Source of the DNA: Phorcus lineatus | Lineage: Eukaryota > Mollusca > Gastropoda > Trochida > Trochidae | Reading direction: 5' to 3' | DNA length: 64,000 nucleotides | Assembly (NCBI GenBank): GCA_921293015.1 | Contig: OV121082.1 | Location: forward strand, 23,041,997-23,105,996 | Shown: positions 4,345 to 57,200 of the stretch, in pieces | How positions within the stretch are numbered: the first letter of the stretch is position 1 | How the letters are laid out: each line of letters opens with the position of its first letter | Program-made: the position numbers and the translations under genes | Notes under the pieces: generated by a model | Databases searched by the model: none | Told to the model about the DNA's origin: nothing | Seen by the model: the letters and a program-made list of their open reading frames with translations, nothing else

Positions 4345-7300
4345 GTGTGCATTGTAAACATGGGTTAAATTGAAGCTCTTTTGATCGACCGTAAGGCATC
4401 CAATAGTTTACAATGTAATCATGGTTTAGATAAAGCTGTTATGATGCAACCATAATGCATCCTATAATTTTTTTAGTATACAATGTAATCATGGTGTAGA
4501 TAGAAGCTGTTATGATGCAACCTTTATGCATCCAATAGTTTACAATGTAATCATGGTGTAGATAGAAGCCGTTATAATGCAACCGTTATGCATCCAATAG
4601 TTTTCAATCCAATCATGGTGTAGATAGAAGCTGTTATGATGCAACCGTTATGCATCCAATAGTTTACAATGTAATCATGGTTTATATAGAAGCTGTTATG
4701 ATGCAACCATAATGCATCCAATAGTTTTCAATGTAATCATGGTGTAGATAGAAGCTGTTATGATGCAAGCGTTATGCATCCAATAGTTTTCAATGTAATC
4801 ATGGTGTAGATAGAAGCCGTTATAATGCAACCGTTATGCATCCAATAGTTTTCAATGCAATCATGGTGTAGATAGAAGCTGTTATGATGAAACCGTTATG
4901 CATCCAATAGTTTTCAATGTAATCATGGTGTACATAGAAGCCGTTATAATGCCACCGTTATGCATCCAATAGTTTTCAATGTAATCATGATGTAGATAGA
5001 AGCCGTTATAATGCAACCGTTATGCATCCAATAGTTTACAATGTAATCATGGTTTATATAGAAGCTGTTAAGATGCAACCGTTGTGCATCCAATAGTTTT
5101 CAATGCAGTCATGGTGTAGATAGAAGCCGTTATAATGCAACCGTTATGCATCCAATAGTTTACAATGTAATCATGGTGTAGATAGAAGCCGTTATAATGC
5201 AACCGTTATGCATCCAATAGTTTACAATGTAATCATGGTGTAGATAGAAGCTGTTATGATGCAAGCGTTATGCATCCAATAGTTTTCAAAGCAATCATGG
5301 TGTAGATAGAAGCTGTTATAATGCAACCGTTATGCATCCAATAGTTTTCAATCCAATCATGGTGTAGATAGAAGCTGTTATGATGCAACCGTTATGCATC
5401 CAATAGTTTTCAATGTAATCATGGTGTAGATAGAAGCTGTTATGATGCAACCTTTATGCATCCAATAGTTTACAATGTAATCATGGTGTAGATAGAAGCC
5501 GTTATAATGCAACCGTTATGCATCCAATAGTTTTCAATCCAATCATGGTGTAGATAGAAGCTGTTATGATGCAACCGTTATGCATCCAATAGTTTACAAT
5601 GTAATCATGGTTTATATAGAAGCTGTTATGATGCAACCATAATGCATCCAATAGTTTTCAATGTAATCATGGTGTAGATAGAAGCTGTTATGATGCAACC
5701 GTTATGCATCCAATAGTTTACAATGTAATCATGGTTTATATAGAAGCTGTTATGATGCAAGCGTTATGCATCCAATAGTTTTCAATATAATCATGGTGTA
5801 GATAGAAGCTGTTATGATGCAACCGTTATGCATCCAATAGTTTACAATGTAATCATGGTTTATATAGAAGCTGTTATGATGCAACCGTTATGCATCCAAT
5901 AGTTTTCAGTGTAATCATGGTGTAGATAGAAGCTGTTATGATGCAACCGTTATGCATCCAATAGTTTTCAGTGTAATCATGGTGTAGATAGAAGCTGTTA
6001 TGATGCAACCGTTATGCATCCAATAGTTTACAATGCAATCATGGTGTAGATAGAAGCTGTTATGATGCAAGCGTTATGCATCCAATAGTTTTCAATGTAA
6101 TCATGGTGTAGATAGAAGCCGTTATAATGCAACCGTTATGCATCCAATAGTTTTCAATCCAATCATGGTGTAGATAGAAGCTGTTATGATGCAAGCGTTA
6201 TGCATCCAATAGTTTTCAATATAATCATGGTGTAGATAGAAGCTGTTATGATGCAACCGTTATGCATCCAATAGTTTACAATGTAATCATGGTTTATATA
6301 GAAGCTGTTATGATGCAACCGTTATGCATCCAATAGTTTTCAGTGTAATCATGGTGTAGATAGAAGCTGTTATGATGCAACCGTTATGCATCCAATAGTT
6401 TTCAGTGTAATCATGGTGTAGATAGAAGCTGTTATGATGCAACCGTTATGCATCCAATAGTTTACAATGCAATCATGGTGTAGATAGAAGCTGTTATGAT
6501 GCAAGCGTTATGCATCCAATAGTTTTCAATGTAATCATGGTGTAGATAGAAGCCGTTATAATGCAACCGTTATGCATCCAATAGTTTTCAATGCAATCAT
6601 GGTGTAGATAGAAGCTGTTATGATGCAAGCGTTATGCATCCAATAGTTTTCAATGTAATCATGGTGTACATAGAAGCCGTTATAATGCCACCGTTATGCA
6701 TCCAATAGTTTTCAATGTAATCATGATGTAGATAGAAGCCGTTATAATGCAACCGTTATGCATCCAATAGTTTACAATGTAATCATGGTTTATATAGAAG
6801 CTGTTAAGATGCAACCGTTGTGCATCCAATAGTTTTCAATGCAGTCATGGTGTAGATAGAAGCCGTTATAATGCAACCGTTATGCATCCAATAGTTTACA
6901 ATGTAATCATGGTGTAGATAGAAGCCGTTATAATGCAACCGTTATGCATCCAATAGTTTACAATGTAATCATGGTGTAGATAGAAGCTGTTATGATGCAA
7001 GCGTTATGCATCCAATAGTTTTCAATGTAATCATGGTGTAGATAGAAGCCGTTATAATGCAACCGTTATGCATCCAATAGTTTACAATGTAATCGTGGTG
7101 TAGATAGAAGCTGTTATGATGCAAGCGTTATGCATCCAATAGTTTACAATGTAATCATGGTGTAGATAGAAGCTGTTATGATGCAACCTTTATGCATCCA
7201 ATAGTTTACAATGTAATCATGGTGTAGATAGAAGCTGTTATGATGCAAGCGTTATGCATCCAATAGTTTACAATGCAATCATGGTGTAGATAGAAGCCGT

Positions 7301-8617
7301 TATAATGCAACCGTAATGCATCCAATAGTTTTCAATGTAATCATGGTGTAGATAGAAGCTGTTATGATGCAAGCGTTATGCATCCAATAGTTTTCAATGC
7401 AATCATGGTGTAGATAGAAGCCGTTATAATGCAACCGTAATGCATCCAATAGTTTTCAATGTAATCATGGTGTAGATAGAAGCTGTTATGATGCAAGCGT
7501 TATGCATCCAATAGTTTTCAATGCAATCATGGTGTAGATAGAAGCCGTTATAATGCAACCGTAATGCATCCAATAGTTTACAATGTAATCATGGTGTAGA
7601 TAGAAGCTGTTATAATGCAACCGTTATGCATCCAATAGTTTACAATGTAATCATGGTGTAGATAGAAGCTGTTATGATGCAAGCGTTATGCATCCAATAG
7701 TTTACAATGCAATCATGGTGTAGATAGAAGCTGTTATGATGCAAGCGTTATGCATCCAATAGTTTACAATGCAATCATGGTGTAGATAGAAGCCGTTATA
7801 ATGCAACCGTAATGCATCCAATAGTTTTCAATGTAATCATGGTGTAGATAGAAGCTGTTATGATGCAAGCGTTATGCATCCAATAGTTTTCAATGCAATC
7901 ATGGTGTAGATAGAAGCCGTTATAATGCAACCGTAATGCATCCAATAGTTTTCAATGTAATCATGGTGTAGATAGAAGCTGTTATGATGCAAGCGTTATG
8001 CATCCAATAGTTTTCAATGCAATCATGGTGTAGATAGAAGCCGTTATAATGCAACCGTAATGCATCCAATAGTTTTCAATGTAATCATGGTGTAGATAGA
8101 AGCTGTTATGATGCAAGCGTTATGCATCCAATAGTTTTCAATGCAATCATGGTGTAGATAGAAGCCGTTATAATGCAACCGTAATGCATCCAATAGTTTC
8201 AGTGTAATCATGGTTTGAGTAGAAGCTGTTATGATGAAGCCGTTACGCATCATATAGTTTTCAATTTAATCATGGTTGATATAGAAGCGTTATGATGCAG
8301 CCGTTAGCATCCTATAAATTTCAATGTAATCATGGTGTAGACAGAAACTATCAAATAGAAAGGATGAAAATTGCTTGGATTTCCATTGCTGCCGCGACTC
8401 TAACATTGTGACGTCAAACTTAAAGATCAAAGATAACATCAGCACGTTATGTAATAACACAATGTGTAATAATATTGTAGATTTATCAAACGGCGGTATC
8501 TTCAACGGGAGAGTAATAGAAGCTTTTAGAAGCAACCGTAATGCTTTGAATAATTTACAATGTAATCATGGTTTAATAGGAATTTTTTATGCAACCGTAA
8601 TGCATTGTATATTGTAA
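4345..8617. repeat. 62-bp tandem satellite (about 62 clear units plus decayed edge)
   Basis: The unit is 62 bp and includes AATCATGGTGTAGATAGAAG, then CTGTTATGATGCAACCGTTA and TGCATCCAATAGTTT. Variants at a few fixed positions (CTG/CCG, GATGC/AATGC, CAACC/CAAGC, TTTACA/TTTTCA) label individual units. Identical multi-unit blocks recur at offsets of 434, 930 and 1736 bp, which are 7, 15 and 28 units. The first unit near 4345 and those after about 8190 are diverged, and 8340-8520 is largely non-repeat sequence before two last partial units. Open frames in the array are by-products of a period that is not a multiple of three. Confidence 0.97.
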
Positions 8618-11915: not shown

Positions 11916-11984
11916 TTAATGATCCTTAATTTTTTTTTTGATGTAGCATGAAGCATATTTTAAAGCATTACGTAATGTGTTGTT

Positions 11985-12000
11985 GTTTTATGTTCACAGG
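11985..12000 (+). promoter_or_regulatory. Probable 3' splice site before the GT31 coding exon
   Basis: A T-rich tract ends in TTTATGTTCACAG just 4 bases before ATGATG. The second GT31 copy has the matching TGTGTTCACAG 6 bases before its ATG (24906). This supports a 5' non-coding exon further upstream and a coding exon starting at about 12000, so an in-frame GTG at 11977 would be intronic. Confidence 0.75.
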
Positions 12001-12003
12001 AAG

Positions 12004-13110
12004 ATGATGTCTTATACGTGGAGAAGATTGAAGAAAAAGGTTCTATTGTTTCTCCTCATCTGTTTGTCTGTCTCGTATTTCTTCCATTCTAACGTATTTT
12101 TTCCAAAAGGACTGCCAGTTCTTCCAATAGTATATTCAAAGACAAAAGAAACATCAAAGCCAACACAACTTCATGATCCAATATCACTTAACCCAAGAGT
12201 GAAAGTTTTACCTTGGAATTTCGTCACAGGACAAACATTTGTGGGACAAGAACACATTTTCCGCCCTAAAGAAACTACTTTGCAATTTTTGGATTTTGAT
12301 TTTAAATTAAAGGGCGAAAATATGTGCAAGGAAATTCCACCATTTCTGTTGACCATGGTACCTTCGCTGCCTAAAGATCAGGACATTAGAGCCTCGATAA
12401 GGAAAACTTGGGCGTCAGTTTCAAAATCGCAGGAATGGCCACTTCGGATTGTGAATGCTGAGGTCAAGGTCATTTTCTTACTTGGAAATGCGACTGCTGG
12501 AGAATTCAAAGCCATACAAGAGGAAAATGCGCAGCATCAAGATATAGTAGTGGCTGATTTCGTGGACAGTTATAGAAATCTAAGCCGAAAAATTCTCATG
12601 GGACTAACATGGGTGAGGGAATATTGCTCCGGGGCTCAGTTCATTCTGAAATGTGATCAAGATACATTCCCTAATATTCCCCTTATTGTTGATTTCCTTA
12701 TAGCATTTCAACCGCAATTCAACATGACTGTTATAGGATACATATTTGGGAAGTCGCGTGTTTTGAGAACCGGAAAATGGCAGGTCAACAGATTGGATTA
12801 TCCAATCAACAACTACCCACCGTACGCTTCTGGCAATGCTTACATCATGCAGCGGGATCTTGCTTTTCACGTGATTGATGTGTCAAAACACATGCCGTAC
12901 ATTTCAGTTGAAGACGCCTATATCACTGGGATATTGACAAGAGTTGTGCACGGAAAGCACGTGCATTCAAAGACTTTCACTACTCTAAGTGACAAAAATC
13001 CGAAGACTTGTGAATTTCTAAAGGATGAAAGGCAAGCAAGCACTCGTACAACAAAATATTTTATGCAAGCCATTTGGAAAACATTTCAAAACAACAAGTG
13101 TTTTCAATAA
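12004..13110 (+). CDS. Beta-1,3-galactosyltransferase-like glycosyltransferase (GT31)
   Basis: Predicted type II Golgi enzyme of 368 residues that would transfer a sugar, probably galactose or N-acetylglucosamine, from a UDP donor to a glycan. The start is the first ATG after the splice acceptor; the next codon is also ATG. Residues 1-12 are basic and cytosolic, and about 13-27 (VLLFLLICLSVSYFF) form the anchor. GT31 landmarks follow in order: SIRKTWASV near 131, VIFLLGN, DFVDSYRNLSRK, the metal-binding DxD as DQD at 218-220, YPPYASGNAYIM near 272 and EDAYITGIL near 303. Three N-glycosylation sequons (NAT, NLS, NMT) fit a secretory protein. The coding region is one exon, as is common in this family. 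DQD in place of the usual DDD keeps both outer acidic residues. The exact donor and acceptor cannot be told. A broken paralogue lies at 24906-30845. Confidence 0.92.
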   Translation: MMSYTWRRLKKKVLLFLLICLSVSYFFHSNVFFPKGLPVLPIVYSKTKETSKPTQLHDPISLNPRVKVLPWNFVTGQTFVGQEHIFRPKETTLQFLDFDFKLKGENMCKEIPPFLLTMVPSLPKDQDIRASIRKTWASVSKSQEWPLRIVNAEVKVIFLLGNATAGEFKAIQEENAQHQDIVVADFVDSYRNLSRKILMGLTWVREYCSGAQFILKCDQDTFPNIPLIVDFLIAFQPQFNMTVIGYIFGKSRVLRTGKWQVNRLDYPINNYPPYASGNAYIMQRDLAFHVIDVSKHMPYISVEDAYITGILTRVVHGKHVHSKTFTTLSDKNPKTCEFLKDERQASTRTTKYFMQAIWKTFQNNKCFQ

Positions 13111-19656: not shown

Positions 19657-19658
<2 letters not shown>

Positions 19659-19696
19659 TAAAAAGGTGAAAGGTCGCACGTGAAGTAAATGTATAT

Positions 19697-20109
19697 TTGA
19701 AAATAAAATACTTCAGACGACACTTGCTCAAAAGAATTTCTTCAAAAGACGCTAAAACATATACTCCTAGAAATTACATGTATACAGGTCATGTCACCGG
19801 TGCGATTGAAACAAAAGATCAATTGATGGACTGGGACAGACCGGGAAGAAGCTACCATAATGACTCAATTCTTAATCCCTCGTAAATAGCGCATTGTAAG
19901 CTAATCAAGCTAACCACTTGTCACTTGCTAATCAATCAAAGTCTATTGTACATTGTTACGTAGTTAAGCATGTGTACCTATATATTTGCCATGTTGTGAA
20001 AACTCCACACTGTTGAAAAGACTTGTTATCAAGTCGAAATGCGACGCATCCAGTCATCATTAAAATGATATCTACAGCAAGTGTCGTCTGAAGTATTTTA
20101 TTTTCAAAT
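19697..20109 (+). mobile_element. Penelope-like element remnant, copy 1
   Basis: The segment is bounded by 30-bp inverted ends (ATAAAATACTTCAGACGACA at the left, its complement at 20076-20106) and by TA repeats. The interior holds a short frame with no recognised domain and, near the right end, a complete hammerhead ribozyme-like fold. A 5'-truncated second copy follows at 20130-20405. Association of TA-rich flanks with hammerhead motifs is known for Penelope-like retroelements, so the assignment rests on that motif rather than on protein homology. Confidence 0.55.
20009..20054 (+). ncRNA. Hammerhead ribozyme-like motif, type I topology
   Basis: All parts occur in the right order and spacing: stem I strand ACTG (20009-20012), core TTGAAAA (20013-20019), stem II GACTTG-TTAT-CAAGTC (20020-20035), GAAA (20036-20039), stem III ATGC-GAC-GCAT sharing the last A (20039-20049), cleavage residue C at 20050, and closing stem I strand CAGT (20051-20054). 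The textbook core is CUGANGA; here C3 is U and G8 is A. These two residues pair in known hammerhead structures, and U-A keeps that pair. The NUH triplet is AUC. Activity is untested. The neighbouring copy near 20310-20352 has lost five bases of stem II and should be dead. Confidence 0.65.
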
Positions 20110-20129
20110 ATATATATATATATATATAT

Positions 20130-20405
20130 ACACACAGGAAGAACCTATTATAATAATTCAAATCTTAATCCCTTAATCCCTCATAAATAGCGCATTGTTA
20201 GCTAATCGAGGTTACCACTTGTTCCTTGCTAATTAATCAAAGTCTAATATACATTATAACATTGTTAAGCATGCGTACCTATATATTTTTGCCATGTTGT
20301 GAAAACTCCACACTGTTTAAAAGACTTGTTATCGAAATGCGACGCATCCAGTCATCATTAAAATGATATCTACAGCAAGTGTCGTCTGAAGTATTTTATT
20401 TTCAA
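20130..20405 (+). mobile_element. Penelope-like element remnant, copy 2 (5'-truncated)
   Basis: It repeats the right two thirds of copy 1, ending in the same CAAGTGTCGTCTGAAGTATT block, with scattered changes. Its hammerhead-like region (about 20310-20352) has TTTAAAA as core and lacks half of stem II. Confidence 0.7.
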
Positions 20406-20457: not shown

Positions 20458-20618
20458 TATGAAGTTAGAAGTAAAAACAATCCATTTTAATGTCTAGCGC
20501 TTTCAGCTCAACGAGCCTCTTCAGGCCATACATACAAGGGATAATATCCGGATAATAATCAGTATGGCCTGAAGAGGCTCGTTGAGCTGAAAGCGCCATT
20601 GTTTGTTTTACTTCTAAC

Positions 20619-21160: not shown

Positions 21161-21308
21161 AAGAATAATCAACAAGATGCGAGGAATTACGGTTTATCTG
21201 TCCTGAGTGGATTATTGTTATAAATTCCGAGCTTTAGCGAGGAATTTATCACAATAATTCACGAGGGACAGATAAACCGTAATTCCGAGCTTCGAGTTGG
21301 TTATTCTT
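21161..21308. repeat. Snap-back inverted repeat of about 148 bp
   Basis: The sequence folds almost end to end: AAGAATAATCAAC (21161) with GTTGGTTATTCTT (21296-21308), GGAATTACGGTTTATCTGTC with its complement near 21266, and ATAAATTCC with GGAATTTAT around a loop of about 8 bases near 21232. A few mismatches are present. It is probably a fold-back MITE, and no coding or target duplication was recognised. Confidence 0.85.
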
Positions 21309-24234: not shown

Positions 24235-24290
24235 TAGGGACGTTTCGGTATAGCTTCTTATACCGTTTTCAAGCCGTTTTCGGCTGTTAC
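24235..24290 (-). mobile_element. Penelope-like terminal motif, degenerate hammerhead
   Basis: On the minus strand TTGAAAA is followed by stem GGTATA-AGAAGC-TATACC and then GAAACGTC. It has the same TTGAAAA core variant as the motif at 20009, and a palindromic ACGT as stem III before the C. Stem I is poor and one base separates the core from stem II, so activity is unlikely. A second motif with TTGAAAAC and CGAAACGTTTC lies on the same strand at 24784-24812. They probably mark ends of old Penelope-like insertions. Confidence 0.45.
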
Positions 24291-25261
24291 TAAAAGAAGA
24301 ATCAGTTTATTTGACAGAATGTAATTTTCCACATTACAAGAATCAATATTGACCTTCATTTCTCAGCATAATTTAAATACCAAAATTTGATAAATACAAA
24401 TATCCAACAGTAGTGAAACGTTATCTGAATGGATTCGTCTTTGTTAAAATTTTAGATAATGAAGCATTTTATTTTCTGAAACATAATCGTCTTTCTTATC
24501 TTTTACCGATATCCAAACTGTGAGTTGCTTAACCTTTGTCCGTGTGTATACATGTTTTTGTTGTCCATTCTATTGAGGAACCTACTCTGATCTGTACACA
24601 CGACGATGAAAGGGAGCACAGTAGAATTCCATACTGACAAAGTCTCCTGGACAAAGCCCTTCCCCTAGTAAAGGGAATTAACCCACTTTAGGGTTCTTGC
24701 CTGTCCGGCGTTATCGTTCCTTTAGCCTCTTAGTGTGTAATAAATAAAAAAACCCTCGAATGAAAGAGAAAAGAAACTCAACTGAAACGTTTCGAAAATT
24801 GTTTTCAAGACGTTACCGCCTATCATAACATAAAATTTAAATGTAATGCAAATTGGATATTGTAAAGCGTGATTTAATTTTGTGTTTTTTTGTGTTCACA
24901 GGACGATGGTGTATTTCGCTGGAAGCAAAATTACGATACACTTTCTACTGTTTTTCATCATCTTCTGTTCGTCTTTTTGGTAATTCTTCTATGCCTTCAA
25001 TCCTCTTAGAAACCGACACTTATTTCTTCCAACGGCGTTCTCAACGATAAACGAAAAACCAGAGCCAATACAAATTCAAACTCCGAGACCCCTCAACCCA
25101 AGTTTGAAAGTTTTACCTTGGAGCTGTGTCAAAGAGAGGACATTTGTGGGGCAAGAACACGTTTTCCATCCTAGAAAGACTACTTTGCAATCCTTTGATT
25201 ATGAATTTGAATTAAAGGGGGAAAGTGTTTGTAAGGAAAATCCACCGTTTCTGTTGACTAT

Positions 25262-25266
25262 GGTAC
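25262..25266. repeat. Left target-site duplication of the LINE (GGTAC)
   Basis: GGTAC here is repeated at 30095-30099 on the other side of the element. The intact paralogue reads ATGGTACCTTCG at this place, so removing the element and one GGTAC restores the aligned gene sequence. Confidence 0.85.
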
Positions 25267-25269
25267 TAC

Positions 25270-25289
25270 TGACGTCACACCAAGATGGC
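25270..25289 (+). promoter_or_regulatory. CRE and YY1-like sites at the LINE 5' end
   Basis: TGACGTCA (25270-25277), the ATF/CREB octamer, is followed 3 bases later by CAAGATGGC (25281-25289), close to the YY1 consensus. Both lie within 23 bp of the element's first base. Human L1 is known to use a YY1 site near its 5' end to position transcription starts; a similar internal promoter role here is inference. Confidence 0.5.
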
Positions 25290-25366
25290 TGCATAGTTTT
25301 TGTGACTGCGAGGTGACTGACTATTTTAACGATTTTTAACCCTTAAATCTCACTCAAACATACAAA

Positions 25367-26455
25367 ATGAGTTCTGGAAAGAAAACCCCAACCCAGGCAC
25401 TCATCTCTAAGAGGAAAAAACCCGCCAGTACACCCGAGAACTGCCCCGACGTGAAAAACTCAGACGGTACACCGACTGCCACGTCACAGCAAAACATCGA
25501 TATCGGCGCTGCGGTGAGAGAGGCTATGCTGTTCCTGTATGCACCCCAGCCGGCTCAGACTTTCTCCTCACCACCCCTCGGAGCTCCACCTCACCCGGGT
25601 CAGTACCATGCTAGCCTTTCTAACTCACGTGAGTCCGATATGACAACAGTGATAAGTCTTCTCCAAAACATGCAACAAAAACTTTCTAAACTAGATCACA
25701 TAGAAACAGCTATCTCAGAAGTTCAAAATAAAGTATCTGGACTAGAAAGGAAAATTGCTGAATTGGATAGCTTAAAAGAAAAAGTTACCAGTATTGAGTC
25801 AAGTATCGAGTTCGTGAGTACTAGTTTCGATGAATGGGCTGTTGATAAACAAACCATTCAAAATGATTTAAAGGCACTTCATACCAAAGTAAACGATATC
25901 CCTGCAGCTGTATCTGACCTTAGATTAGAAAATTTACAGATGAAAGAATATATGATTGACCAGCGTTGTCGTTCGATGAGGGACAACCTGATCTTTACTG
26001 GAATCCCAGAGTCTTCAACAGCCCAGGAAGCAGAACAGACAGGAGATGTGCTGAAGAACTTTATTCAGGAGCACCTCGAGATGGACCCCAACAACTTCAG
26101 CTTCAAAAGGATCCACAGGATTGGACCAAAGAGAAGAGGAGCAACGAGACCTCGCTCAATAATAGCGAAATTCAACATCACAGCTGAGAGGGATCTGGTG
26201 AAGAGGTCAGGAAGGAAACTGAAAGGTAAACCCTACAGCATATTTGAACAGTTCCCTGAGGAGATAAGCTCCTACAGGAGAGAAGTTCTTATGCCTCTAC
26301 AGAGAGAAGCCAGAAATCAAAATAAACAGGCTCATATTGTGATTGACAAATTGTATGTTGATAATGTTTTATCTCCTGTGCCCACTCCTCCACCCTACAG
26401 AGTTCCAGCAAACCGAAAGACTCCCACCCTGACAGCCAGAACCACTAGGAGCTAG
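25367..26455 (+). CDS. LINE ORF1 protein (coiled coil plus RRM-like, L1 ORF1p type)
   Basis: 362 residues starting at an ATG about 100 bases from the element's 5' end. The first 85 residues are basic and proline/threonine-rich. About 90-195 form a heptad-rich coiled coil (LLQNMQQKLSKLDHIETAIS and onward). From about 200, RSMRDNLIFTGIPES opens an RRM-like domain, followed by FKRIHRIGPKRRGATRPRS and a C-terminal domain with PLQREARNQNKQAHI. This is the layout of L1-type ORF1 proteins, trimeric RNA-binding chaperones that package the element's RNA. It ends in TAG at 26453-26455, in the same frame as ORF2. The frame is intact. Confidence 0.9.
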   Translation: MSSGKKTPTQALISKRKKPASTPENCPDVKNSDGTPTATSQQNIDIGAAVREAMLFLYAPQPAQTFSSPPLGAPPHPGQYHASLSNSRESDMTTVISLLQNMQQKLSKLDHIETAISEVQNKVSGLERKIAELDSLKEKVTSIESSIEFVSTSFDEWAVDKQTIQNDLKALHTKVNDIPAAVSDLRLENLQMKEYMIDQRCRSMRDNLIFTGIPESSTAQEAEQTGDVLKNFIQEHLEMDPNNFSFKRIHRIGPKRRGATRPRSIIAKFNITAERDLVKRSGRKLKGKPYSIFEQFPEEISSYRREVLMPLQREARNQNKQAHIVIDKLYVDNVLSPVPTPPPYRVPANRKTPTLTARTTRS

Positions 26456-29400
26456 GGGGACGTCGGTGGTAGTGTGAGTGACTTTCAGGATCACTTTGAG
26501 AGTGAAAAACCAAATACTGATCTAAAAGTTGTTTGTCTTAATGTTTGTGGTTTAAGAAAAAGACTTGAGTACCCTGACTTTATAGAACTTATTGAGAAAC
26601 ATGATTTAATATGTCTTCAAGAAACAAAAACAGATGCACTAGATGATATTGAAATACCAGGTTATAAAGTCTTGTTGAAAAATAGAAAAAACTTCATAAG
26701 ACGTTCTGGTGGAATAGGATTAGCTGTTAAAGACCACTTGTTTCCTTATGTTACTCTAGTAGACTTAGAAAATGAGGCAGTTTTATGGATTAAACTAGCA
26801 GGCTATCTGTTCAACTTACCTCAAGATTTATACCTTGGTATTGTGTATATACCACCTGAATGCTCTAGATTCTCAAGTGAAGAAATGTTTGAATGTATTG
26901 AACATGATCTTACTTTAATTTCAACCCATACTGACAATATTATTCTTAATGGGGATTTCAATGCTAGGACTAAGTCCTTAATTGATTTTTGTACTTTTGA
27001 TGAACATCTATCAAAAGAACTAGATATTGATGAACTGAGATCAGAACTTGACTCAGAATTAATGCTTGAAAATCTTGGTATCCCAGTAGAAAGAACATCC
27101 CAGGATATAGGTCAGCCAAATAATTATGGATTTAGATTAATTGATATTTGTAAAAGTCACAATTTGTTAATCTGTAATGGTAGAATTGGTAAGGATAAGC
27201 ACATAGGTAAAACAACTTGTAAAGACGTCAGTACAGTAGACTATGTCATTTCATCCCCAAATTCATTATCCTTATTCAATGATTTTAGTGTTTCAGAATT
27301 CTGTCCTATGCTATCTGATGTACATAAACCAATTCATTTCAGTCTACACATATCAAAAACCAACTGTCATGAAATAGGACATGGACAGACTCCAGCTATT
27401 AATGATACAAAACATTTTGTCAGCAAACCAGGTAAATTTAATCATGATAAAGTAGATATATTCCTTAAAAACATTCCAAATGATTGTGTCAACAAATTGT
27501 GCAGGAAAGCAAGGTCATTAAGGGAAGGTCAAGGTAACCCAGTAGAGGTTGTGAATGAAATAGCGCAAGAGGTCACGCACGTGCTGGTCTATTCTGCACG
27601 TAAAGCATTTGGTGAAGTTCCTTATAAGGTCAATACCACTACTCGTAGTAAAAGGAACGTACACTCTAAACCTTGGTATGGACCAGATTGTAAGAAGAAA
27701 CGGAAGTCATTTCATAAGCCAAAAGCATGTTATTATAAGAACAAAACAGACACTAATAAAACTCTTTTCCGTAAAGCAAGTAAGGAATATAAGAAAACCA
27801 TGAATAAGTACATAAAGAAAGAAAATGATTTTATAAGAACCCAGTTACGTAAAGAAAAGCAATTATCGCCTAAAAACTACTGGAGACTTCTTAAAGGTAA
27901 ACAGAGAGACGATAAATACCCAATCTCTTTAGATGATTTTTATGATCACTTCAAAAGCATAAATGAAAGCATTATTGATGGTGACGCGGACTTAAGTGAA
28001 ACAAAAGACCCGCCAAATTATGATGTTAGTGTACTCAATGAAGACATATCTGCGCATGAAATAGTTTTTGCTCTCCAGAAATTGAAGAAAAACAAGACAC
28101 CTGGTTTAGACTTGATTGTGAATGAGTACTTGTCTTCAGCCTTACCAACTTTATTGCCTTTTTATGTTGAATATTTTAACGCTGTTCTACAAACTGGAAT
28201 AATGCCCCAAGCATGGCTTACCGGCACAATAAAACCTATCTATAAGAAATCAGGAGACCGTAAGGATCCGGCCTCATATAGACCTATATCTATCTTGAGT
28301 TGCTTTGGTAAGCTATTTACTAGCATCCTAAATGAAAGATTAACTAAATTTTGCGACGATAATGATATAATATCACATGCCCAATCTGGTTTCAGAAAGG
28401 GTTTTTCTACAACTGATAATGTATTCATTATTCATAATTTGATACATCGATTGAAGATATATAAAAAGAAACTCTTATGTGCCTTTATAGACTTCTCAAA
28501 AGCCTTTGATAAAGTCTGGAGAATTGGATTGTGGACTAAATTAAGACAAATTGGTATCAAAGGGAAAGTATTGAATTTGATACAAAATATGTATGATGAT
28601 ATAAAATCTTGCGTTATGATAGAGTCAGAAAAATCTGATTTCTTCAATTGTCTCTCAGGAGTTAGACAAGGAGAAAACTTGTCTCCTCTTTTATTTTCCT
28701 TATTTTTAAATGATCTAGAATGTCACCTATCAAATCAATCGTGTGTTGGTGTTGAATTAGAAACGCACAACGATGATTTTATTATTTATTTCAAACTACT
28801 TGTCCTACTCTATGCAGACGATACTGTTCTCCTTTCAGAAACTCATGATGATTTACAAAATTCTGTGAATTCGTTTGCTGAATATTGCGACAGATGGAAA
28901 CTTCAAGTAAACACTAGCAAGACAAAGATAATTATATTCGGTTCCGGACCAGCAGCTAGTTACAAAAAAACATTCTCACTGTATGATAAGAAAATTGAAG
29001 TTGTCAACACTTATAAATACCTAGGAACTGTGCTACATAGAAATGGACGTATGAACTTCGCTGTTAAGTATATTGCTAATCTTGGCATGAAGGCATCGAT
29101 AGCATTATTGAAACGTGCTAGAAATATTAAATTGCCACTAGACCTACTTCTTTCTGCATTTGACAGATTAGTTGTACCAATTTTGTTGTACGGATGTGAG
29201 ATATGGGGATATGAGAACACCGAAATAATAGAAAAAGTTCATCTCAAATTTCTTAAATTAGCTACTGGTTTACGGTTTAATACACCAAACTTTATGGTGT
29301 ATGGGGAACTCGGTAGAGAACCTATTCAGCTTCAAATTTCGAAACGATTTATCTCATACTGGTGTAAATTGATATTTTCACATCCAAACAATAAAATAGC

Positions 29401-29989
29401 AACGTTTATCCTTCAATACATTACAAATGAAAACAAAACGCTATCTCACTATGCCTGGGTAAATCACATTAAACACATTCTTTGTAAGTGCGGTATTCCG
29501 GATGTTTTTTATTATCCTCAGCGTTATTCAAACTCATGGATCATTCATAAGGTAGACCGTATTTTAAAAGATAATTTCTTACAATCATGGATGAGCGATA
29601 TACAAAAATCTTCGAAAGGAATTTATTATAAAATTCTGAAGTCTTCTCCACAATTTGAACAATATCTACTCTTATCAGAAGACATCTCTAAACCAATCCT
29701 AAAATTTTGAACTTGCAATCACAAACTTCCAATAGAAACTGGTAGATGGCAAAATACCCCAAGAGAAGAGAGATTCTGTAATTTATGTGATTCACGTTTG
29801 ATTGGAGATGAGTTTCATTATTTATTTAAATGTCACTACTTTGCAGATCTACGTAGGTCATTGTTTCAAGAATATTATATAACCTGGCCTAGTATGTATA
29901 CGTTTCGTAAACTTTTCATAAGTAATATTTCAACTCTCAAAAAACTTTCCAAGTTCATTAAGACTGTTTGTAACCACTTTGATTGTTAA
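26456..29989 (+). pseudogene. LINE ORF2: APE endonuclease, reverse transcriptase, C-terminal zinc motif
   Basis: The frame is open directly after the ORF1 stop, with no AUG before the endonuclease: GTG at 26474 is the first start-like codon, and the first internal ATG falls about 140 codons in, inside the endonuclease. Endonuclease landmarks are LNVCGL, LQETKTD, GIVYIPPE, NGDFNAR, VDYVISSP and SDVHKPI. RT motifs are AFIDFSKAFD (near residue 668 counted from 26474), GVRQGENLSPLLF (near 728) and LLYADDTVLL (near 778). A TGA at 29708-29710 follows KPILKF. The same frame continues with CNHKLPIETGRW and a CX2CX9HX4C motif (CNLC, H, C), to a stop at about 29987. A CGA-to-TGA change at a CpG is a likely cause of the stop. 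It is probably a nearly intact polymerase that lost only its tail. Confidence 0.9.
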
Positions 29990-30094: not shown

Positions 30095-30845
30095 GGTACC
30101 GTCGCTGCCGAAAGACCTAGACACAAGAGCCTCGATAAGGAAAACTTGGGCGTCAGTTTCAAAATCGCAGGAATGGCCACTTCGGATTTTGAATGCTGAG
30201 GTCAAGGTCATTTTCTTACTTGGAAATGCGACTGCTGCAGAATTCAAAGCCATACAAGAGGAAAACGCGCAGCATCAATATATAGTAGTGGCTGAATTCG
30301 TGGACAGTTATGAAAATCTAAGCCGAAAAATTCTCACGGGAATAAAATGGGTGAGGGAATAGTGCTCCGGGGCTCAGTTCATTCTGAAATGTGATCAAGA
30401 TACATTCCCTAATATTCCCCTTATTGTTGATTTTCTTATAGCATTTCAACCGCAATTCAACATGACTGTTATAGGATACATATTCCCACAATCAAGTGTT
30501 CACCGAACTGGAAGATGGCAGGTCAACAGATTGGATTATCCAATCAACAGGTATCCACCGTACGCGTGCGGCGCTGCTTACATCATGCAGCGGGATCTTG
30601 CTTTTCACGTGCTGAATGTGTCAAAACACATGCCGTACATTTCAGTTGAAGACGCCTATATCACTGGGATATTGACAAGAGTTGTGCACGGAAAACACGT
30701 GCATTCAAAGACTTTCACTAAAATTGATGACTTAAAGCCGAGGCCTTGCCAATTTCTAAACGATAAAAAGCTAGCAAGCACTCATGTAAAAACCAAATTA
30801 ATGCAATCGATTTGGAAAACATTTCAAACCAATAGGTGTTTCTAA

Positions 30846-48214: not shown

Positions 48215-51200
48215 AAGTTGAAACAGATCTCATCTGAGATAAAATCCTAAAGGCTTGTGAGCCAAAAAGGTAATATATATGCTTTAAGTAAGATCTACTT
48301 GTAATTTTGATTTCTTATGGTAATTGTGATACTTATCAGTAGAGTATATGTGATTTGGTTTGGACAAGGAGAGATTGTAAAAAGCATAATTATACCCCCG
48401 CCTTACAGCGTAAGCGGGGGTATATAGCGTTCATTCTGTCCGTCCGTCTGTCTGTCCGTCCGTCTGTCCGTCCGTCACAAATCTTTGTCCGGAGCATATC
48501 TCCTAAACTATACATGCTAGCTTCACCAAACTTCATACACTTATCAACCATGATCCCTAGATGTGCCTTTTGAGGGTAAGACCAACAAATGATTTTTATT
48601 TTTTGCGGTTTCCATGGAAACATGACTAAAACAGTGACTCTATGACCAAGTCCTTTGTCCGGAGCTTATCTCCTAAACTATACATGCTAGCTTCACCAAA
48701 CTTCATACACTTATCAACCATGATCCCTAGATGTGCCTTTTGAGGGTTAGACCACCAAATGATTTTTATTTTTTGAGGTTTCCATGGAAAGATGACTAAA
48801 ACAGTGACTATGACCAAGTCCTTTGTCCGAAGCATTTATCATAAACTATACATGCTATCTTCATCAAACTTCATACACTTATCAACCATGATCCCTAGAT
48901 GTGCCTTTTGAGGGTTAGACCAACAAATGATTTTTATTTTTTGCGGTTTCCATGGAAACGTGACTTAAACAGTGACTAAGTCCTTTGTACGGAGTATATC
49001 TTCATAACTATACATGCTATCTTTACCAAACTTCATACACTTATCAACCATGATCCATTGATGTGCCTTTTGAGGGTTAGACCAACAAATGATTTTTATT
49101 TTTTTTATGGTTTCCATGGAAACATGACTAAAACAGTGAATTTATGACCAAGTCCTTTGTCCGGAGTATATTTTCTAAACCGTACATGCTATCATCACTA
49201 AACTTCATACACTTATCCATGTTGGTGCACCTCTTGAGGGTAAGACCAAGAATTATTTTTATTTTTTCGCGTTTTACATGGAAATGTTACTAAAACAATG
49301 ACTATCTGACAAAGTGCTTTTTCCTGAGCATATCTCCTAAACTATACATGCTAGCTTCAACAAACTTAATACACTTATCAACCATGATCCCTAAGTGAGC
49401 TTTTTGAGGGTAAGACCAACAAAGAAAGCCAGACTATAGTTTGAAGCGGGGGTATGTGAGCTGTGCTCACTTCTTTACTTGTTTGGAACAGATCTCATCT
49501 GAGATATAATCCTAAGGGCTTGTGAGCCAAAATGGTAATATATACGCTAGAAGTAAGACCTAACTTGTAATTGGGCCCTTATTGAAGTTTAGATACTATT
49601 CTGTAGAATATAAACTGATTCTATGGACTGGGAGAGAGTGTCAAAAGGCAAAAGTTGGAACAGATCTCATCTGAGTTATATTCTTAAGGGCTTGTGGGCC
49701 AAAATGGTAATATATATGCTAGAAGTAAGCGCTACTTGTCATTGGGCTTTTGTGGTAGCTGTGATACTAATCTGTAGAATATAAAGTGTTTCTTTGGACT
49801 GGGAGAGAGTGTCAAAAGGCAAAAGTTGAAACAGGTCTCATCTGAGATGTAATCCTAAAGGCTTGTGAGCCAAAATGGTAATATATATGCTAGAAGTAAG
49901 AGCTACTTGTAATTATGGGCTTTTTTGGTAGCTGTGATACTAATCAGTAGAATATAAACTGTTTCTTTGGACTGGGAGAGAGTGTCAAAAGGCAAAATTT
50001 GGAACAGGTCTCATCTGAGATGTACTCCTAAGGGCTTGTGAGCCAAAATGGTAATATATATATGCTAGAAGAAAGACCTGTTTGTAACTGGGCTCTAATG
50101 GAAATTGTGATACTAATCTGTAGAATATGAACTGCTTCTTTGGACTCGGAGAAAGTGTCAAAAGGCATTATTTGGAACAGATCTCATCTGAGATGTAATC
50201 CTAAAGGCTTGTGAGCCAAAAAGTTAATATATATGCTAGAAGTAAGACCTACTTGTAATTTTGAATTCTTATGGTAATTGTGATACTTATCAGTAGAGTA
50301 TATGTGATTTGGTTTGGACTGGGAGAGAGGGTCAAAAGGTAAAAGTTGGAACAGGTCTCATCTGAGATGTAATTCTAAGGGCTTGTGAGCCAAAATGGTA
50401 ATATATATGCTAGAAGTAAGAGCTACTTGTAATTATGGGCTTTTTTGGTAGCTGTGATACTAATCTGTAAAATATAAACTGTTTCTTTGGACTGGAAGAG
50501 AGTGTCAAAAGGCAAAACTTGGAACAGATCTCATCTGAGATGGAATCCTAAGGGCATGTGAGCCAAAATGGTAATATATATGCTAGAAGTAAGAGCTACT
50601 TGTAATTATGGGCTTTTTTGGTAGCTGTGATACTAATTTGTAGAATATAAACTGTTTCTTTGGACTGGGAGAGAGTGTCAAAAGGCAAAACTTGGAACAG
50701 GTCTCATCTGAGATGTACTCCTAAGGGCTTGTGAGCCAAAATGGTAATATATATGCTAGAAGTAAGAGCTACTTGCAATTATGGGCTTTTTTGGTAGCTG
50801 CGATACTAATCTGTAAAATATAAACTGTTTCTTTGGACTGGAAGAGAGTGTCAAAAGGCAAAACTTGGAACAGATCTCATCTGAGATGGAATCCTAAGGG
50901 CATGTGAGCCAAAATGGTAATATATATGCTAGAAGTAAGAGCTACTTGTAATTATGGGCTTTTTTGGTAGCTGTGATACTAATTTGTAGAATATAAACTG
51001 TTTCTTTGGACTGGGAGAGAGTGTCAAAAGGCAAAAGTTGGAACAGGTCTTATTTGAGATGAAATTTTAAGGGCTTGTGAGCCAAAATGGTTATATATAT
51101 GCTAGAATTAAGAGCTACTTGTAATTATGGGCTTTTTTGGTAGCTGTGATACTAATCTGTAGAATATAAACTGTTTCTTTGGACTGGGAGAGAGTGTCAA

Positions 51201-54200
51201 AAGGCAAAAGTTGGAACAGGTCTCATCTGCGATGTACTCCTAATGGCTTGTGAGCCAAAATGGTAATATATATGCTAGAAGTAAGAGCTACTCGTAACTG
51301 GGCTCTTATGGAAGTTGTGATACTACTCTGTAAAATATAAACTGATCCTTTGGACTGGGAGAGAGTGTCAGAAGGCAAAAGTTGGAACAGATCTCATCTG
51401 AGATGTAATCCTAAGGGCTTGTGAGCCAAAAAGGTAATATATATGCTTGAAGTAAGAGCTACTTGTAATTGGGCTTTTTTGGTAGCTGTGATACTAATCT
51501 GTAGCATATGAACTGTTTCTTTGGCCTGGGAGAGAGTGTCAAAAGGCAAAAGTTGGAACAGGTCTTATTTGAGATGAAATTTTAAGGGCTTGTGAGCCAA
51601 AATGGTAATATATATGCTAGAAGTAAGAGCTACTTGTAATTATGGGCTTTTTTGGTAGCTGTGATACTAATCTGTAGAATATAAACTGTTTCTTTGGACT
51701 GGGAGAGAGTGTCAAAAGGCAAAAGTTGGAACAGGTCTCATCTGCGATGTACTCCTAAGGGCTTGTGAGCCAAAATGGTAATATATATGCTAGAAGTAAG
51801 AGCTACTTGTAACTGGGCTCTTATGGAAGTTGTGGTACTACTCTGTAAAATATAAACTGATCCTTTGGACTGGGAGAGAGTGTCAAAAGGCATTATTTGG
51901 AACAGATCTCATCTGAGATGTAATCCTAAGGGCTTGTGAGCCAAAAAGGTAATATATATGCTAGAAGTAAGAGCTACTTGTAATTGGGCTTTTTTGGTAG
52001 CTGTGATACTAATCTGTAGCATATGAACTGTTTCTTTGGCCTGGGAGAGAGTGTCAAAAGGCAAAAGTTGGAACAGGTCTTATTTGAGATGAAATTTTAA
52101 GGGCTTGTGAGCCAAAATGGTTATATATATGCTAGAAGTAAGAGCTACTTGTAATTATGGGCTTTTTTGGTAGCTGTGATACTAATTTGTAGAATATAAA
52201 CTGTTTTTTTTGACTGGGAGAGAGTGTCAAAAGGCAAAAGTTGGAACAGGTCTCATCTGCGATGTACTCCTAAGGGCTTGTGAGCCAAAATGGTAATATA
52301 TATGCTAGAAGTAAGAGCTACTTGTAACTGGGCTCTTATGGAAATTGTGATACTAATCTGTAGAATATGAACTGCTTCTTTGGACTCGGAGAAAGTGTCA
52401 AAAGGCATTATTTGGAACAGATCTCATCTGAGATGTAATCCTAAGGGCTTGTGAGCCAAAAAGGTAATATATATGCTTGAAGTAAGAGCTACTTGTAATT
52501 GGGCGTTTGTGGTAGCTGTGATACTAATCTGTAGCATATGAACTGTTTCTTTGGCCTGGGAGAGAGTGTCAAAAGGCAAAAGTTGGAACAGGTCATATTT
52601 GAGATGAAATTTTAAGGACTTGTGAGCCAAAATGGTTATATATATGCTAGAAGTAAGAGCTACTTGTAATTATGGGCTTTTTTGGTAGCTGTGATACTAA
52701 TCTGTAGAATATAAACTGTTTCTTTGGACTGGGAGAGAGTGTCAAAAGGCAAAAGTTGGAACATATCTCATCTGAGATGGAATCCTAAGGGCTTGTGAGC
52801 CAAAATGGTAATATATATGCTAGAAGTAAGAGCTACTTGTAATTGGGCTTTTGTGGTAGCTGTGATACTAATCTGTAGCATATGAACTGTTTCTTTGGCC
52901 TGGGAGAGAGTGTCAAAAGGCAAAAGTTGGAACAGGTCTTATTTGAGATTAAATTTTAAGGGCTTGTGAGCCAAAATGGTTATATATATGCTAGAAGTAA
53001 GAGCTACTTGTAATTATGGGCTTTTTTGGTAGCTGTGATACTAATCTGTAAAATATAAACTGTTTCTTTGGACTGGGAGAGAGTGTCAAAAGACAAAAGT
53101 TGGAACAGGTCTCATCTGCGATGTACTCCTAAGGGCTTGTGAGCCAAAATGGTAATATATATGCTAGAAGTAAGAGCTACTTGTAACTGGGCTCTTATGG
53201 AAGTTGTGATACTACTCTGTAAAATATAAACTGATCCTTTGGACTGGGAGAGAGTGTCAAAAGGCAAAAGTTGGAACAGATCTCATCTAAGGTGTAATCC
53301 TAAAGGGCTTGTGAGCCAAAATGGTAATATATATGCTAGAAGAAAGACCTGTTTGTAATTGGGCTTTTGTGGTAGCTGTGATACTAATCTGTAGCATATG
53401 AACTGTTTCTTTGGACTGGGAGAGAGTGTCAAAAGGCAAAAGTTGGAACAGGTCTTATTTGAGATGAAATTTTAAGGGCTTGTGAGCCAAAATGGTTATA
53501 TATATGCTAGAAGTAAGAGCTACTTGTAATTATGGGCTTTTTTGGTAGCTGTGATACTAATCTGTAGAATATAAACTGTTTTTTTTGACTGGGAGAGAGT
53601 GTCAAAAGGCAAAAGTTGGAACAGGTCTCATCTGCGATGTAATCCTAAGGGCTTGTGAGCCAAAATGGTAATATATATGCTAGAAGTAAGAGCTACTTGT
53701 AACTGGGCTCTTATGGAAATTGTGATACTAATCTGTAGAATATGAACTGCTTCTTTGGACTCGGAGAAAGTGTCAAAAGGCATTATTTGGAACAGATCTC
53801 ATCTGAGATGTAATCCTAAGGGCTTGTGAGCCAAAAAGGTAATATATATGCTTGAAGTAAGAGCTACTTGTAATTGGGCTTTTGTGGTAGCTGTGATACT
53901 AATCTGTAGCATATGAACTGTTTCTTTGGCCTGGGAGAGAGTGTCAAAAGGCAAAAGTTGGAACAGGTCATATTTGAGATGAAATTTTAAGGGCTTGTGA
54001 GCCAAAATGGTTATATATATGCTAGAAGTAAGAGCTACTTGTAATTATGGGCTTTTTTGGTAGCTGTGATACTAATCTGTAAAATATAAACTGTTTCTTT
54101 GGACTGGGAGAGAGTGTCAAAAGGCAAAAGTTGGAACATATCTCATCTGAGATGGAATCCTAAGGGCTTGTGAGCCAAAATGGTAATATATATGCTAGAA

Positions 54201-57200
54201 GTAAGAGCTACTTGTAATTGGGCTTTTGTGGTAGCTGTGATACTAATCTGTAGCATATGAACTGTTTCTTTGGCCTGGGAGAGAGTGTCAAAAGGCAAAA
54301 GTTGGAACAGGTCTTATTTGAGATGAAATTTTAAGGGCTTGTGAGCCAAAATGGTTATATATATGCTAGAAGTAAGAGCTACTTGTAATTATGGGCTTTT
54401 TTGGTAGCTGTGATACTAATCTGTAAAATATAAACTGTTTCTTTGGACTGGGAGAGAGTGTCAAAAGGCAAAAGTTGGAACAGGTCTCATCTGCGATGTA
54501 CTCCTAAGGGCTTGTGAGCCAAAATGGTAATATATATGCTAGAAGTAAGAGCTACTTGTAACTAGGCTCTTATGGAAGTTGTGATACTACTCTGTAAAAT
54601 ATAAACTGATCCTTTGGACTGGGAGAGAGTGTCAAAAGGCAAAAGTTGGAACAGATCTCATCTAAGGTGTAATCCTAAAGGGCTTGTGAGCCAAAATGGT
54701 AATATATATGCTAGAAGAAAGACCTGTTTGTAATTGGGCTTTTGTGGTAGCTGTGATACTAATCTGTAGCATATGAACTGTTTCTTTGGACTGGGAGAGA
54801 GTGTCAAAAGGCAAAAGTTGGAACAGGTCTTATTTGAGATGAAATTTTAAGGGCTTGTGAGCCAAAATGGTAATATATATGCTAGAAGTAAGAGCTACTT
54901 GTAATTATGGGCTTTTTTGGTAGCTGTGATACTAATCTGTAGAATATAAACTGTTTCTTTGGACTGGGAGAGAGTGTCAAAAGGCAAAAGTTGGAACAGG
55001 TCTCATCTGCGATGTACTCCTAAGGGCTTGTGAGCCAAAATGGTAATATATATGCTAGAAGTAAGAGCTACTTGTAACTGGGCTCTTATGGAAGTTGTGG
55101 TACTACTCTGTAAAATATAAACTGATCCTTTGGACTGGGAGAGAGTGTCAAAAGGCATTATTTGGAACAGATCTCATCTGAGATGTAATCCTAAGGGCTT
55201 GTGAGCCAAAAAGGTAATATATATGCTAGAAGTAAGAGCTACTTGTAATTGGGCTTTTTTGGTAGCTGTGATACTAATCTGTAGCATATGAACTGTTTCT
55301 TTGGCCTGGGAGAGAGTGTCAAAAGGCAAAAGTTGGAACAGGTCTTATTTGAGATGAAATTTTAAGGGCTTGTGAGCCAAAATGGTTATATATATGCTAG
55401 AAGTAAGAGCTACTTGTAATTATGGGCTTTTTTGGTAGCTGTGATACTAATCTGTAGAATATAAACTGTTTTTTTTGACTGGGAGAGAGTGTCAAAAGGC
55501 AAAAGTTGGAACAGGTCTCATCTGCGATGTACTCCTAAGGGCTTGTGAGCCAAAATGGTAATATATATGCTAGAAGTAAGAGCTACTTGTAACTGGGCTC
55601 TTATGGAAATTGTGATACTAATCTGTAGAATATGAACTGCTTCTTTGGACTCGGAGAAAGTGTCAAAAGGCATTATTTGGAACAGATCTCATCTGAGATG
55701 TAATCCTAAGGGCTTGTGAGCCAAAAAGGTAATATATATGCTTGAAGTAAGAGCTACTTGTAATTGGGCGTTTGTGGTAGCTGTGATACTAATCTGTAGC
55801 ATATGAACTGTTTCTTTGGCCTGGGAGAGAGTGTCAAAAGGCAAAAGTTGGAACAGGTCATATTTGAGATGAAATTTTAAGGACTTGTGAGCCAAAATGG
55901 TTATATATATGCTAGAAGTAAGAGCTACTTGTAATTATGGGCTTTTTTGGTAGCTGTGATACTAATCTGTAGAATATAAACTGTTTCTTTGGACTGGGAG
56001 AGAGTGTCAAAAGGCAAAAGTTGGAACATATCTCATCTGAGATGGAATCCTAAGGGCTTGTGAGCCAAAATGGTAATATATATGCTAGAAGTAAGAGCTA
56101 CTTGTAATTGGGCTTTTGTGGTAGCTGTGATACTAATCTGTAGCATATGAACTGTTTCTTTGGCCTGGGAGAGAGTGTCAAAAGGCAAAAGTTGGAACAG
56201 GTCTTATTTGAGATTAAATTTTAAGGGCTTGTGAGCCAAAATGGTTATATATATGCTAGAAGTAAGAGCTACTTGTAATTATGGGCTTTTTTGGTAGCTG
56301 TGATACTAATCTGTAAAATATAAACTGTTTCTTTGGACTGGGAGAGAGTGTCAAAAGACAAAAGTTGGAACAGGTCTCATCTGCGATGTACTCCTAAGGG
56401 CTTGTGAGCCAAAATGGTAATATATATGCTAGAAGTAAGAGCTACTTGTAACTGGGCTCTTATGGAAGTTGTGATACTACTCTGTAAAATATAAACTGAT
56501 CCTTTGGACTGGGAGAGAGTGTCAAAAGGCAAAAGTTGGAACAGATCTCATCTAAGGTGTAATCCTAAAGGGCTTGTGAGCCAAAATGGTAATATATATG
56601 CTAGAAGAAAGACCTGTTTGTAATTGGGCTTTTGTGGTAGCTGTGATACTAATCTGTAGCATATGAACTGTTTCTTTGGACTGGGAGAGAGTGTCAAAAG
56701 GCAAAAGTTGGAACAGGTCTTATTTGAGATGTAATTTTAAGGGCTTGTGAGCCAAAATGGTTATATATATGCTAGAAGTAAGAGCTACTTGTAATTATGG
56801 GCTTTTTTGGTAGCTGTGATACTAATCTGTAGAATATAAACTGTTTCTTTGGACTGGGAGAGAGTGTCAAAAGGCAAAAGTTGGAACAGGTCTCATCTGC
56901 GATGTAATCCTAAGGGCTTGTGAGCCAAAATGGTAATATATATGCTAGAAGTAAGAGCTACTTGTAACTGGGCTCTTATGGAAGTTGTGATACTACTCTG
57001 TAAAATATAAACTGATCCTTTGGACTGGGAGAGAGTGTCAAAAGGCAAAAGTTGGAACAGATCTCATCTAAGGTGTAATCCTAAGGGCTTGTGAGCCAAA
57101 ATGGTAATATATATGCTAGAAGTAAGAGCTACTTGTAATTGGGCTTTTTTGGTAGCTGTGATACTAATCTGTAGCATATGAACTGTTTCTTTGGACTGGG

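Follow-up and report, generated by a model that had tools for sequence, protein, structure and literature searches.

The main papers on minimal hammerheads in Penelope-like elements are reportedly those of Cervera and de la Pena (2014) and Lunse et al. (2017). Minimal type I hammerheads are known in the pseudo-LTRs (pLTRs) of Penelope-like elements (PMC7761336, PMC11167929) and are also reported in such elements in PMC7229834; their role there is called a mystery in a review, which also describes action as a dimer for hammerheads with a weak stem III (PMC7761336). For PAc of Anolis, the relevant part of PMC11167929 describes reverse transcription that starts internally, targets rich in AT, priming on both strands and a hammerhead located where pLTR and ORF meet; cutting by this hammerhead needed protein, was dispensable for insertion in vitro and left no ends in RNA-seq. 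In the Penelope elements of Adineta vaga the pLTRs are inverted and one of them has a 31-bp tail; the pLTR contains a TATA box and an initiator, and a foreign gene has moved between the pLTRs (PMC3846280).

The canonical hammerhead core, CUGANGA, contains C3 and G8, which form a near-universal pair. This pair covaries to U3/A8 in several natural hammerheads, and cores of this kind are active in vitro (Perreault et al. 2011, PMC3088659, where Przybilski and Hammann 2007 is cited for U3/A8 cores); in a cricket satellite, only four sequences depart at position 3 and two at position 8 (PMC2837043). A text search of the literature for hammerheads with the notation 'C3-G8' or 'U3-A8' found none, a result that bears on those spellings only.

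We analyzed a stretch of 64,000 nucleotides from Phorcus lineatus (contig OV121082.1, positions 23,041,997 to 23,105,996; the window below is this whole stretch) and read in it a hammerhead-like motif at 20009..20054 on the plus strand. The motif has three helices with stem I open, a GAAA box, the A15.1-U16.1 pair and a NUH triplet, as in type I hammerheads, and lacks the canonical core letters C3 and G8. Stem I is formed by ACTG (20009-20012) and CAGT (20051-20054), stem II by GACTTG (20020-20025) and CAAGTC (20030-20035), and stem III by the pairs A20039-T20049, T20040-A20048, G20041-C20047 and C20042-G20046 with the loop GAC; the GAAA box occupies 20036-20039. A TTAT tetraloop caps stem II, and a clear stem I bulge is absent by eye. 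Because the core, TTGAAAA at 20013-20019, departs from the canonical letters as UUGAAAA while the 3-8 pair is retained as U3/A8, we call the motif a hammerhead-type variant. C20050 corresponds to H17, and the triplet ATC precedes the predicted cut after 20050.

The preliminary description of this DNA had proposed the same type I fold, had noted that the two changed bases are those that pair with each other, and had placed the predicted cut after 20050; our reading agrees with it in these three respects. It also took the host to be a bivalve. Its further proposal that the TTGAAAA variant recurs in a second motif at 24239 is rejected, as the minus strand there (GCCGAAAACGGC-TTGAAAA-CGGTATA..TATACCG-AAAC) has no stem I by eye and failed the type I descriptor. 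This descriptor (at least four pairs in stem I, four in stem II and three in stem III, GAAA and UH, with positions 3 and 8 free) matched the window once, both strands together, at 20013.

When 200 strands of 64 kb were simulated with a first-order Markov model of the window, the any-core descriptor matched nine times in total (0.045 per strand), and neither the U3..A8 core nor the canonical core gave a single match. A chance origin of the window motif is unlikely. None of the Rfam hammerhead models matched the window at the gathering score, and relaxing the limit to E<=10 gave no match either, perhaps because of the variant core. The hammerhead likeness could still be a coincidence in a repeat that works otherwise, for example as a promoter hairpin, and the Rfam result, the nine any-core matches and the fact that one repeat family amounts to one observation are in line with this; but the simulations never produced the U3..A8 core, and the termini of the repeat, described below, are like those of Penelope elements, which carry minimal type I hammerheads in their pLTRs (PMC7761336, PMC11167929), so that we consider coincidence quite improbable.

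A genome search with RF00163 (73 of 101392 candidates scored) gave two matches below the cut-off, both at other loci (28.4 and 24.4 against 34 bits). These hammerhead-like motifs, in L042 and L043 (both at about 1506-1540), have the core CTGATGA or CTGACGA and lie downstream of TATATA and upstream of a common stretch, GCCCCTCCTCGCCTAATC. They perhaps belong to another element family with a canonical core.

The motif of the window belongs to the 3' terminal repeat of a retroelement present in many copies. Alignment to the L041 copy identified two arms of a head-to-head insertion flanked by AT runs: the right arm, a 5'-truncated element copy at 19728..20118 on the plus strand (unit positions 1233-1623), and the left inverted arm at 19657..19728 on the minus strand (unit positions 1581-1652), also visible as an inverted repeat, which has the longer tail. 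The right arm starts with the C-terminal end of the element's orphan ORF (19728..19885, plus strand; ..DWDRPGRSYHNDSILNPS, stop codon at 19883-19885), which is whole in L041. A promoter-like stretch follows at 19979..20011 on the plus strand, with TATATATT at 19979-19986 and the initiator-like CCACACT at 20005-20011. The putative transcript start, A20007, lies 28 nt after the first base of this TATA sequence. Between the motif and the 3' end of the inserted copy there is a further stretch (20055..20118, plus strand), and then the AT run. The family is represented once more at 20137..20405 on the plus strand, by a fragment that is 86% identical; its motif at 20312 is decayed (TTTAAAA, with 5 nt of stem II lost).

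Several other repeats were observed in the window. A perfect inverted repeat at 20497-20596 has 35-nt arms with 30 nt between them, one arm being also found downstream of a motif array in L052 (about 1714-1748), and a second palindrome at 21161-21308 has 73-nt arms. A satellite array with a period of about 171 (dimer 344) and about 50 copies occupies 49483-58782, and an array of 62-bp units occupies 4474-8346. The region 25340-29710 is presumably LINE-like, judged by its look (an open frame at 25340-26455 and a long frame at 26456-29710, endonuclease plus RT-like). It splits a frame that, also by look, we take to be galactosyltransferase-like; the two parts, at 24984-25316 and 30363-30845, resemble another frame, at 11947-13110.

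In the assembly (74 contigs, 958 Mb), the 71-nt surroundings of the motif had at least 41 matches; of 916 candidates, 40 were scored. Copies of the element share one 3' end and start at differing places. In L041 the element is arranged as a tandem unit with a period of 1510, in the order motif, tail, 405-aa orphan ORF, promoter-like stretch, motif. The ORF is open there and fills most of the unit, and its start codon follows the predicted cut by about 128 nt. Neither an RT nor a nuclease was recognized in the 405-aa ORF by Pfam, which returned only weak matches below the cut-offs; the RT that characterizes Penelope-like elements, and the GIY-YIG endonuclease of the canonical ones, were thus not found in this ORF by Pfam. 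Searches of protein collections gave no relative for a 250-aa piece of the ORF (E<=0.001) or for the 405-aa ORF (E<=0.01), and the only match of the latter among PDB sequences, creatine kinase with E 0.9, was taken as chance. The predicted structure is of low confidence (mean pLDDT 48.5) and mostly helical, with long helices. No RT-bearing partner of the element was identified.

Since the unit contains nothing resembling an RT, the element was filed as non-autonomous and not as a Penelope element; from its sequence, we take it to be a non-autonomous retroelement with Penelope-like termini. Two other classes were considered and rejected. A MITE or DNA transposon with terminal inverted repeats does not fit the inverted arm of varying length, the common 3' end and the variable starts. 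Retrozyme RNAs are not known to code for protein. A metazoan retrozyme was rejected because it has a small tandem unit (RNA of about 170-400 nt), whereas the unit found here is 1510 nt long and contains an ORF.

The Penelope-like features of the termini are the tandem pLTRs, the head-to-head inverted arm, the tail on one arm, the 5' truncation and the AT-rich target. Both 3' ends were read in 15 insertions (the window, L001, L022, L028, L030, L032/33, L037/38, L040, L044, L045, L048, L049, L050, L053 and L055; selected by different routes, in part for two motifs standing close together). In all 15, one end lies within unit positions 1617-1623 and the other within 1648-1652, one arm being longer than the other by about 29 nt. 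An AT run is present on both sides in 11 of these 15 insertions and on one side in the other four. The inverted arm was not found in L009, L011, L031, L034, L035 and L036, where very short arms would escape alignment. The pLTR has a promoter-like TATA and initiator, and both pieces occur together in 46 of 60 motif contexts. Several copies (in L028, L044, L045, L046 and L048) have 5' ends at unit positions 1-6, where the initiator CCACACT, with the TATA sequence 28 nt before, would start a transcript; as the loci with such ends were mostly picked for two close motifs, their count gives no rate.

The U3/A8 core is common to many copies of the element. A genome pattern that leaves positions 3, 7 and 8 free but holds stem II and some of stem III constant was found at 216 places (111 + 105), and the reversed-pattern control at none; canonical-core copies whose stem II differs would escape this pattern. 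Among the 100 listed of these 216 places, 99 have the core UUGAAAA, one has UUGAAGA and none is canonical. All 12 loci found by a query without the motif carry TTGAAAA and paired stems; these loci overlap with others, one being the window and one L021 again, with L037/L038 forming one insertion and L032/L033 sharing the same junctions. In the examined loci, 58 of 60 motif contexts, most of them chosen through the motif itself, have TTGAAAA, the exceptions being TTGAAAT (L012, minus strand) and TTTAAAA (the window at 20312). The diverged copy L054, with pieces 73-90% identical, has three motif pieces, two with TTGAAAA and one with TAGAAAA.

The preliminary description had offered two interpretations of the core, a natural subclass or decay. 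Decay would mean that the window copy is a canonical hammerhead changed by mutation from C3 to U and from G8 to A; the decayed neighbouring copy at 20312 is in its favor, but the same core is present in 99 of the 100 listed places and in all 12 loci that the motif-free query brought up, so that U3/A8 is the usual state of the family and decay of a single copy is rejected. This explanation is the least in keeping with the data and extremely improbable. A new natural subclass is too strong a term, because natural U3/A8 hammerheads and their activity were already reported in 2011 (PMC3088659). Thus the fold and the shared U3/A8 pair stand, while the novelty of the subclass and the motif at 24239 do not, and the element context had been missed. 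A subclass was to be supported by many copies with intact U3/A8 and covarying stems; many copies with U3/A8 do exist, but in 30 of them the stems hardly vary and show no covariation.

These 30 motif copies come from 17 chosen loci. In 25 of them the stems, GAAA, the cut triplet and the paired 3-8 positions are unchanged. Two copies are altered in loop II only (L035 and the second motif of L041), and three are damaged: the first motif of L041 (loop II, and GAAA to GAAG with stem III), the minus-strand motif of L012 (A9 and stem I) and that of L028 (stem I). Compensatory changes are absent from the stems of all 30 copies, the few stem changes breaking pairs; the support for the stems of the motif therefore comes from their constancy, not from covariation. 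In a comparison of two copy groups (flanks masked, 75% threshold), fixed differences were found at 0 of 48 positions of the motif, 0 of 63 of the stretch after it, 68 of 614 of the ORF, 5 of 91 of the UTR and 1 of 31 of the promoter-like stretch, a comparison that is biased, since 10 of the 12 copies had been selected for 71-nt identity across the motif, and one is that very query. Promoter function or RT binding could conserve the motif stretch too.

For the 46-nt monomer, the predicted MFE structure is a competing fold (-10.3 vs -8.8 kcal/mol for the hammerhead, which has a probability of 0.035), and for the canonical-core version of the same 46 nt it is hammerhead-like (-9.8). Two copies of the motif are predicted to co-fold as a double hammerhead via the palindromic stem III (-28.3). 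The inserted RNAs were uncut at the motif: the 3' ends of inserted copies lie 68 or 97 nt beyond the predicted cut, and the near-complete L028 copy begins before the cut, with the motif included at its 5' end.

Junctions between element copies were compared with the predicted cut, which falls after unit position 1555. An exact-cut junction pattern was found at two genome places (L047/L051 and L052), and a control pattern placed 8 nt downstream at none. A gap pattern gave nine matches, in which the last element base is 1554 (C1), 1554 (C9), about 1560 (C2, C9), 1553, 1553 and 1554-1555 (C39, one array), 1551 (C12) and 1551 (C29). The 100 listed places include five same-orientation motif pairs less than 200 nt apart, with four simple junctions (three at most 1 nt from the cut, one at 1571) and one compound snap-back. 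The junction is exactly at the cut in L047 and within 1 nt of it in L044 and L045; others are 2-5 nt away or further. With two exact-cut places, none for the control and nine gap-pattern matches, enrichment of junctions at the exact cut is not proven, and the junctions at or next to the cut are a hint, not proof, of cutting in the animal. At 1288-1579 of L052, about seven hammerhead-like units of about 42 nt stand head to tail, reaching from the putative transcript start to the cut region; most of them share one substitution, and they may come from DNA-level amplification.

These results also bear on the possibility that the element is Penelope-like and its U3/A8 hammerhead is catalytically dead, the stretch being kept as transcript start and RT recognition site. 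The uncut state of the inserted RNAs, the competing fold predicted for the monomer, the lack of compensatory stem changes and the junctions 2-5 nt off the cut are all consistent with a dead hammerhead, as is the ability of PAc hammerhead mutants to insert in vitro (PMC11167929). Against it, stems, GAAA, cut triplet and 3-8 pair are intact in 25 of the 30 copies, with only loop II altered in two and damage in three, some junctions are at or next to the cut, and U3/A8 cores are active elsewhere (PMC3088659). We regard a dead hammerhead as a real possibility, though a doubtful one.

The explanation that we prefer, with a probability of roughly 0.72 including the mechanism outlined here, is that the motif is a hammerhead-type ribozyme in the pLTR of a non-autonomous retroelement with Penelope-like termini. 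Transcription would start from about A20007 and yield RNAs that begin with the ribozyme. The RNA would be cut after C20050 by the motif alone, as a dimer via the palindromic stem III AUGCGACGCAU, or with the help of protein, and the cut would free a leader of about 44 nt and separate the units of tandem transcripts. A Penelope-type enzyme acting in trans would copy uncut or multi-unit RNA, starting at one of two internal points past the motif, and priming on both target strands at AT runs would generate head-to-head, mostly 5'-truncated twins. In this family, U3-A8 stands in for C3-G8 as the usual state. The motif may also be idle in the element. A more specific version, which we put forward tentatively and consider rather unlikely, is that a recently active family swapped C3-G8 for U3-A8 and has its ribozyme at the first transcript base, that the leader of about 44 nt is cut off, and that cut leaders sometimes end up as DNA copies, including concatemers of about 42 nt as in L052.

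If the motif cuts, a thriving lineage can exchange the 3-8 pair permanently, beyond scattered or engineered examples; if it does not, a ribozyme fold has been retained for another reason. Scans with canonical models can miss U3/A8 families, as Rfam did in the window. The dispersed copies record where reverse transcription starts, jumps and ends, and thereby offer a genome-based test of the role of the hammerhead.

Both U3/A8 hammerheads and minimal hammerheads in Penelope-like elements are known, and the unusual point here appears to be the family-wide swap. The element resembles PAc in having a hammerhead in the pLTR near the start of the unit, tandem units, a weak stem III, an internal start of reverse transcription, an AT-rich target and priming of both strands. 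It differs from PAc in its UUGAAAA core, in having a 405-aa orphan ORF instead of RT or GIY-YIG, and in the position of this ORF, which in PAc begins inside the hammerhead and here has its start codon about 128 nt past the cut. With the Penelope element of Adineta vaga it shares TATA and initiator, inverted pLTRs, a tail on one arm (31 bp in Adineta) and a foreign gene between the pLTRs, whereas the sequence differs and the relevant part of PMC3846280 describes no hammerhead for the Adineta elements. Metazoan retrozymes, also present in mussels, are likewise non-autonomous tandem repeats with type I hammerheads, but their RNAs are about 170-400 nt long (PMC7229834), compared with the ORF-containing unit of 1510 nt and the variant core described here. 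The hammerheads of PMC3088659 have the identical swap at positions 3 and 8 with the pair retained; there the passage concerned speaks of several examples, whereas here the swap is the rule in a single family of mobile elements (99 of 100 places listed, among 216 that match the pattern).
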